A stretch of DNA of 64,000 bases from Burkholderiales bacterium PBB1 (GTDB lineage Bacteria > Pseudomonadota > Gammaproteobacteria > Burkholderiales > Burkholderiaceae_C), in contig NKIN01000001.1 in NCBI GenBank assembly GCA_002255905.1, forward strand, positions 62,001-126,000. The letters run 5' to 3'. Numbering within the stretch: the stretch's first letter is position 1; each line of letters starts with the position of its first letter. Under the pieces are notes generated by a model. The model did no database searches and was not told where the DNA came from. It saw only the letters and a list, made by a program, of their open reading frames with translations. Shown one piece after another: positions 2,183 through 2,673 of the stretch. A program made the position numbers and the translations under genes.

Positions 2183-2190
2183 TGCGTGGT

Positions 2191-2323
2191 GCTGCCGAGG
2201 GCGCGGGGTGACCGGCTCCGCTCATGTCCTCCGGGCCGGTTCACCGATTGCTCGCTTCGGGTAAAGCCAATCCGGCCCTCCCCCTTTACTTCGCTGCGCC
2301 GGTCACCCCACGCCCTCGGCAGC
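2191..2323 (-). repeat. Hairpin repeat unit 1 (stem 25 nt, conserved core)
   Basis: Left arm 2191-2215 (starts GCTGCCGAGGGCG) and right arm 2299-2323 are reverse complements with one difference in 25. They enclose a core at about 2216-2298. On the minus strand the single difference becomes a G-U wobble, so an RNA from that strand would pair fully. The core holds AAGTAAAGG, GGAGGGCCGG and CCGAAGCGA followed by GGTGAACCGGCCCGG and GGACATGA (minus-strand reading). It also has an internal GGGCCGG/CCGGCCC hairpin. The core is shared with unit 2, but the stem sequences are unrelated. See findings. Confidence 0.8.
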
Positions 2324-2379
2324 CGGCACCGCCGTTGCACGCAAAGGCATGAAACACCAGCCTGCTTCGATGGTGGCAG

Positions 2380-2508
2380 GAGCGCTGCGGTGGGCCGCTG
2401 TGTGGAGTGAAGTAAAGGAGGAGGGCCGGCGCGGTTGAAACCGAAGCGAATGGCTGGTGAACCGGCCCGGGGGACATGAACGCAACACAGTGGCCCGCCG
2501 CAGCGCTC
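2380..2508 (+). repeat. Hairpin repeat unit 2, inverted relative to unit 1
   Basis: Left arm 2380-2403 (GAGCGCTGCGG...) pairs with right arm 2485-2508. The two differences in 24 positions are both G-U wobbles in a plus-strand RNA. The core (about 2404-2484) is the same as in unit 1 but in the opposite orientation, reading AAGTAAAGGAGGAGGGCCGG then CCGAAGCGA, GGTGAACCGGCCCGG and GGACATGA on the plus strand. Short ORFs across both units read out similar peptides only because of the DNA repeat. No coding gene is called in 2183-2673. Confidence 0.8.
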
Positions 2509-2650
2509 ACGCGTTGAACTCGGCAACCCAGAACTGCAGGTCCTTCCCCCCCCTTATCCGGCTCAAGTTTGGGCGGTGCCTCGGAACAATGGCAAGCATC
2601 AACCGACGCTTTGCATGTCCGCACATCTCCTCTCCACACGGCCGCTGACG

Positions 2651-2672
2651 GTCACCTTCCGGGTGACGTCAC
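2651..2672 (+). promoter_or_regulatory. Hairpin and palindrome abutting the flhA start codon
   Basis: GTCACC (2651-2656) and GGTGAC (2662-2667) can pair around a five-base loop. GTGACGTCAC (2663-2672) is a perfect 10-base palindrome ending one base before the flhA ATG. The only weak ribosome-site candidate, GGGTGA, sits inside this structure. Either a DNA operator or a structure that masks the ribosome site is possible. No function is shown. Confidence 0.35.
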
Positions 2673-2673
2673 G

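Follow-up and report, generated by a model that had tools for sequence, protein, structure and literature searches.

The element between flhB (PF01312) and flhA (PF00771) in the 64,000-nt stretch of DNA analysed here (the window) is one copy of a small repeat that is dispersed in the genomes of many related bacteria. Comparison of its copies established covariation of the paired positions, a preference of this covariation for one strand, a composite layout of two inverted units and a low divergence of retained copies. Our preferred reading, to which we give slightly less than an even chance, is that of a dispersed, non-coding and non-autonomous repeat of two inverted structured units which would take its form as RNA, act through its conserved loop and be spread in trans. 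In short, we regard it as a structured element that is independent of direction, is probably RNA and was spread by a putative agent; the main rival is a single-stranded DNA element of the REPIN type. Dispersed repeats of bacteria are commonly regarded as palindromes of DNA. In the repeat described here, the nucleic acid is structured: its stems covary, its non-canonical loop is conserved and one strand is clearly preferred. Once inserted, the retained copies seem to be preserved.

In the first-pass annotation of the window, two hairpin units with an inverted shared core and unlike stems were described, and alignment of arms and cores as well as folding recovered both of them in place (Table 1). 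The self-complementary arms measure 31 nt in unit 1 (90% complementary) and 29 nt in unit 2 (86% complementary), and the cores at 2219-2295 and 2406-2482, 77 nt each, lie in opposite orientation with an identity of 78%. The fold z-scores were -6.7 for unit 1 and -6.6 for unit 2 against 200 shuffles each, none of which was equally stable. Among the 25 P1 pairs per unit, read on the AAGTAAAGG strand, the two units together contain three G-T pairs, one G-A pair and no A-C pair. The general plan of a unit, about 100-141 nt in size, is a long stem P1 leading to a conserved internal loop (5' strand GAAGTAAAGGRGGAG, 3' strand CGGRGGACATGA) and then to a hairpin P2; there is no gene inside the usual composite. 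On a single strand, one long hairpin is the more stable fold of the window composite (-218.0 vs -183.5 for the parts folded apart). This counts against our preferred reading of the element; the long hairpin could serve an RNA mechanism or a single-stranded DNA mechanism alike.

Table 1 Features of the composite element. Positions are those of the window unless a contig is named.
Feature	Position	Strand	Basis or remark
Whole composite: type-B unit (minus), spacer, type-A unit (plus)	2187..2514	.	covariance model R1; recurs in own genome and genus
R1 model matches to window composite	G000:C16:64187-64327(-), 64374-64514(+)		window = G000:C16:62001-126000
Unit 1 (type B): P1 stem, core, P2 hairpin	2191..2323	-	arm pairing, fold, R1 match
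P1 5' arm, unit 1	2293..2323	-	arm pairing
P1 3' arm, unit 1	2191..2221	-	arm pairing
Conserved core 5' strand, unit 1, GAAGTAAAGGGGGAG	2278..2292	-	sequence; alignment A2
Conserved core 3' strand, unit 1, GGAGGACATGA	2222..2232	-	sequence; alignment A2
Inter-unit spacer, faced by sense 5' ends of both units	2324..2379	.	23.5% orthologue divergence
Unit 2 (type A): P1 stem, core, P2 hairpin	2380..2508	+	arm pairing, fold, R1 match
P1 5' arm, unit 2	2380..2408	+	arm pairing
P1 3' arm, unit 2	2480..2508	+	arm pairing
Conserved core 5' strand, unit 2, GAAGTAAAGGAGGAG	2409..2423	+	sequence; alignment A2
Conserved core 3' strand, unit 2, GGGGGACATGA	2469..2479	+	sequence; alignment A2
Co-varying core purine pair, A.G in unit 2, G.A in unit 1	2419 with 2471	+	A2; locus groups
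P2 hairpin, unit 2: pairing kept in stem, loop freely varying	2423..2468	+	orthologue divergence

Used as a query against its own genome, unit 1 matched itself, seven further full-length copies with 82-90% identity and many partial ones. The covariance model R1 was built from 34 units (alignment A2) which had been chosen by BLAST and then by the core motif in sense orientation. In the same genome, it found 23 units or fragments up to an E-value of 1, corresponding to eight window-like composites, three units on their own, a pair separated by 874 bp, and two fragments. The DNA search of the genus was positive for 12 of 15 genomes, the own genome counted. The searches of the family, order and class were run with stricter filters and at most 9-14 candidates scored per genome, and their copy numbers and absences apply at that sensitivity: 97 of 250 family genomes and 68 of 141 genera had a match, the other 153 genomes had none at the cut-off and filters used, the order sample gave 11 matching genomes out of 250 (seven outside the family, in two other families) and the class sample 5 out of 369 (three outside the family). 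Outside the family, the element is thus sporadic, and one of the class matches there (G352, locus L127) is without the purine core and may be due to chance. With an exact core pattern, the matches listed included Hydrogenophaga, Rubrivivax, Variovorax, Paucibacter, Methylibium and Sulfurisoma as well as Lysobacter, Luteimonas and Pseudoxanthomonas of the Xanthomonadaceae; there was no record of Bordetella among the named loci listed. Run on related genomes, as the first-pass annotation had foreseen, the covariance model returned many copies with a conserved core and covarying stems. The accompanying view that the stem sequence is free while pairing is kept holds between genera and between unit types. 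It fails within the species, where the seven other matches to unit 1 are alike with their stems included; likewise, conservation of the stems in other copies, which had been named as a sign against a structured family, was found within the genus and not across genera. The comparison with known repeats did not place the element in any known insertion sequence or REP family, which had been named as another such sign.

The paired positions covary. Two-sided changes were found in 28 of 35 pairs in the 34 units of A2 and, across genera, in 34 of 35 pairs in the 65 rows of alignment A3 (model R2; 64 units and one antisense match). In A3, 95.3% of the cells were paired, compared to 66.0% after shuffling and at most 42.7% when partners were slid, the latter control being lenient since the structure was derived from the same sequences. 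In the core, the two facing purines of the 34 units were A.G in 22 and G.A in 12 cases and never both alike; in 46 units at seven loci, they were A.G 26 times, G.A 17 times, A.A and T.G once each, with one unit unread, and both states were present within 9 of 14 locus groups. A larger set (A5) of 135 rows gave A.G 125, G.A 7, A.A 2 and A.C 1, and a core A-U pair was replaced by G-C in 12 of these 135 rows and in 2 of the 34 units. The loci of A5 were picked by the exact core pattern, which gave at least 120 stretches, 80 of these 120 being taken further, so that core conservation in this set is inflated and core variation understated; the pattern touches neither P1 nor the partner units. The tandem G.A of the core gave way to Watson-Crick GAA/TTC in 6 of 132 rows and also in L096, L101, L124 and L126, and this replacement rules out reading the tandem G.A as a K-turn. 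A Shine-Dalgarno-like string had been pointed out in unit 2. It turned out to be part of the structured core, and the ATG that follows becomes ACG where its A-U pair becomes G-C. As the ATG changes with its paired base, no conserved start codon is seen and a coding origin of the AAAGGAGG...ATG string is ruled out. A derivation of the stems from pre-existing terminators is ruled out as well, since the stems are alike among the copies of one genome.

The imperfect pairs of P1 show a strong bias on the AAGTAAAGG strand. In the BLAST-selected units of A2, we counted 60 G-T and 5 A-C pairs; two further counts gave 112 vs 13 (antisense row left out) and 268 vs 42. Matches of a covariance model favour G-U over A-C, a bias of which A2 is free. 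At orthologous loci, the distinct non-Watson-Crick states comprised 48 G-T, 5 A-C and 15 others (p 7e-10 for 48 vs 5). Both the A2 units and the orthologous loci bear out the strand argument of the first-pass annotation, and with the units on opposite strands, the constraint follows the strand of each unit. In DNA hairpins, too, G-T is the better mismatch, so the strand bias alone is no proof of RNA.

Far from being independent, the two units recur jointly as one composite of about 318 bp. Among 55 pairs of neighbouring units within 1 kb, 52 were ordered minus-then-plus, two plus-then-minus and one had both units on the same strand, and the gap between the model ends was 28-36 nt in 38 of the 52 minus-plus pairs. 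With stem types assigned by a profile whose training set was 23 units typed by eye, we found one stem of type A and one of type B in 42 of the 52 composites, two of type B in eight and two of type A in two (p 9e-6 vs one half). Some composites depart from the usual form in other ways. In L101, L124 and L136, the two units carry identical P2 hairpins and in L079:1314-1641 the 3' half of P2 is near-identical in both units, as if exchanged inside the composite.

Orthologous copies of seven own-genome loci were found by their flanking DNA and aligned, giving 32 comparisons which share the seven reference loci and are not independent. Divergence was 8.6% in P1 (137/1600 sites), 6.9% in the core (75/1084) and 8.3% in the P2 stem (32/384, unit types pooled), compared to 29% in the P2 loop (285/978, unit types pooled), 23.5% in the spacer (150/637) and 31% in the outer flanks (254/829), where forced alignment may inflate the value. 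Changed P1 pairs stayed paired in 64 single and 16 double changes, gained or lost a standard pair in 26 single and 6 double changes, and were unpaired on both sides in two cases. These values come from 46 of 61 orthologue matches, 10 antisense and 5 degraded ones (two in L344, two in L330, one in L340) being left out, and the constraint looks stronger for the omission of degraded units. Gene conversion as the cause of the low divergence is not favoured, since stems within the genome differ by 0.096/0.093 (types A/B) and those of orthologues by 0.085/0.089. With copies of the same genome no more alike than orthologues, concerted evolution is not an obvious cause; the distance between orthologues, which is almost that between paralogues, would still allow for occasional exchange. 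Selection seems to keep retained copies intact. The constraint is visible in retained copies, yet copies are dispensable: the one between flhB and flhA is internally deleted in G014, and another is present as a remnant only in G005.

According to our preferred reading, the fold of each unit, formed on the unit's own strand, would comprise a long P1 and a P2, both variable, and between them a conserved, purine-rich internal loop containing non-canonical pairs. The folded form would be RNA, transcribed when the locus is read through from one side or the other. Since the units are inverted, any transcript would contain exactly one unit in working orientation, and the direction of insertion would be irrelevant. 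The conserved loop may be a site for a protein or for RNA processing, with the stems merely displaying it, and the composite would be spread by a putative trans factor. In 19 composites between co-directional genes, 438 of 475 P1 cells were paired in the sense unit and 445 of 473 in the antisense unit; 16 of these composites combine a type-A with a type-B unit, and in them the sense unit was of type A in 6 and of type B in 10. The equally good pairing in the antisense unit goes against the prediction of simple read-through and rules out read-through from neighbouring genes as the only driver; the element acts, if at all, irrespective of the direction of its neighbours. Since the antisense unit is equally paired and the RNA form is deduced from the sequences, we place the RNA mechanism somewhat below an even chance. 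Should the element prove to be RNA, each genome would provide many natural sites at which to test a new motif and the ways in which a selfish repeat can become tolerable or useful to its host.

Alternatively, the element could be a REPIN-like miniature mobile DNA, the inverted units being transposon ends which form single-stranded DNA hairpins for a transposase acting in trans, with selection operating only via copying. We consider this somewhat unlikely. The layout resembles that of REPIN/BIME elements, i.e. RAYT-linked doublets of REPs, in that narrowly spaced inverted palindromic pairs without a gene inside are dispersed between genes (here 52 of 55 pairs, 38 of the 52 with 28-36 nt spacing) and adjoin unrelated genes. 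Movement of some kind is argued for by this dispersal, by the patchy distribution, which includes the sporadic Xanthomonadaceae records (Lysobacter, Luteimonas and Pseudoxanthomonas among the matches listed), and by internally deleted copies in which the outer ends are kept (L040, L043, L044). In contrast to REPIN/BIME, the stem outside is variable and the internal loop inside is conserved; REPs carry a conserved foot tetranucleotide. The low divergence of stem and core at old orthologous sites would also be unexpected if the DNA were inert after insertion. Neither the own genome nor two copy-rich genus-mates had a match at E<=1e-5 to the Y1 transposase (PF01797, under which we take RAYTs to fall). 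At this threshold, 31 of 97 carriers, the own genome included, had no match, and there was no association between transposase and element (66/97 carriers vs 100/153 non-carriers, p 0.68). Comparison of three loci with seven empty or degraded sites, whose flanks are much diverged, revealed no clean target duplication. No blastn match was obtained in a plasmid collection with two queries or in a phage collection with one query, blastn being weak at such divergence, and viral contigs gave no match to one exact pattern. An autonomous copy with a transposase between the units was rejected for the wide pairs in L045 and L096, whose ORFs are unlike each other and without a Pfam match at threshold. 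These two pairs (L045:640-1525 and L096:733-1501) enclose a segment of ~770-890 bp with an ORF, which could be captured cargo or chance. With regard to size, the units of about 100-141 nt exceed the 20-40 bp given for REPs in the available part of PMC3733652, in which none of the lineage names that we looked for occurs.

A second known repeat, the Beta-proteobacterial repeat element (BRE) of Hot et al. 2011, is described in the available part of that article as a chromosomal, mostly intergenic sequence of about 90 bp in Bordetella, Comamonadaceae and other Betaproteobacteria, often in tandem arrays and variable in copy number, with one copy in a Bordetella pertussis region yielding small transcripts (PMC3110155). 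Compared by description alone, BRE and our element are both chromosomal, mostly intergenic and Betaproteobacterial; inverted pairing or structure is not reported in that part of the text (PMC3110155), and the direct tandem order of BRE was seen here in only one of 55 neighbouring pairs within 1 kb. We found no recognisable description of our element in open-licence papers with the terms used. Compared by eye with integron attC sites, the variable outer stem and conserved inner loop are the reverse of the usual arrangement. These sites are imperfect palindromes with variable arms that work on one strand as folded DNA.

A single unit resembles the structured RNAs of Rfam, such as ribozymes and riboswitch-like motifs, in that covarying helices surround an internal loop which is conserved and non-canonical. 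Helix covariation beyond the shuffled and slid controls and the strand-specific constraint are in line with such an RNA. The element differs from these families by its inverted pairs at many unrelated loci and by having no match in Rfam 15 at the gathering score, where the window gave three tRNAs only and ten loci gave nothing above threshold. At a relaxed E-value, there were three chance-level matches in four loci and none in six more; one of them, to a microRNA family, overlaps an element with 23.4 bits against a cut-off of 90. The first-pass annotation had offered a structured RNA family or a small mobile element, and both suggestions would fit a dispersed repeat with units resembling structured RNA. 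The two may be combined in a more specific form: a self-spreading RNA-type element, in which inverted twins give one working RNA structure in either direction and the purine loop is a new protein-binding or catalytic RNA motif selected at many sites per genome. The loop would consist of GG-R-GG facing GG-R-GG, with an A.G pair flipping to G.A in place, a motif that would be undescribed. We regard this form as unlikely.

Quite improbable, in our judgement, is a generic bidirectional terminator or stabiliser of mRNA 3' ends, for which a strong hairpin alone would suffice. In line with such a role, the elements are mostly intergenic and often near a stop codon: of the 51 elements placed, counting single units, 42 lay between two genes, eight overlapped an ORF call and one had no gene, as judged by a home-made GC3 method of gene calling. 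The 42 comprised 26 co-directional, 13 convergent and 3 divergent gene pairs, compared to 183, 61 and 56 for neighbouring genes at the same loci. Divergent pairs were somewhat rarer (3/42 vs 56/300, p 0.08); neither this departure in orientation nor the other (p 0.16) was significant. Five consecutive T residues are rare within 20 nt of the stem, with 0/34, 1/64, 0/44 and 2/134 units in A2 to A5; the A3 case may be the same locus as one of the two A5 cases. Moreover, a hairpin alone leaves the conserved purine core and the co-varying non-canonical pairs unexplained. A special tie to flhB and flhA, which had been suggested, is not supported, since the neighbours elsewhere are unrelated genes and the window site is one of many. 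A specific gene neighbourhood in general is ruled out, with at most 4 of 99 scanned proteins (the 97 nearest genes and two ORFs between units) sharing a Pfam family.

The plan of several small ribozymes is a conserved, asymmetric internal loop set between two variable helices. That the loop is such a ribozyme, cutting the transcript from either strand and thereby limiting the damage of insertion into operons, is very improbable: the two variable helices around an asymmetric loop with co-varying non-canonical pairs and the frequent location between co-directional genes (26/42) agree with it, but no Rfam 15 family matches and the sequence names no catalytic residue or cleavage site.

A few copies deviate in structure from the window element. 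In L033 (G000:C15:288350-288739), the core of the type-A unit carries an insertion of ~68 nt with self-complementary stretches of its own, and in L126:1154-1616, from a genome outside the family, three units follow each other in the order minus, minus, plus. The units of G110 (L143-L152) are mostly single; upstream of those in L150 and L151, sequence resembling a degenerate partner unit without the purine core was recognised by eye. Compact P2 hairpins of roughly 16-20 nt, compared to about 46 nt, were seen in L053-L055 of the own genus. Finally, the region between element and flhA in the window (2515-2673) contains ~150 bp of non-coding sequence (TTATCCGGCTCAAGTTTGGGCG...CGGAACAATGG) which is common to L109, L110 and L114 and missing in genus-mates with abutting flhB and flhA (L115, L116, L119, L120); this sequence may be a promoter gained on splitting of the flhB/flhA pair.
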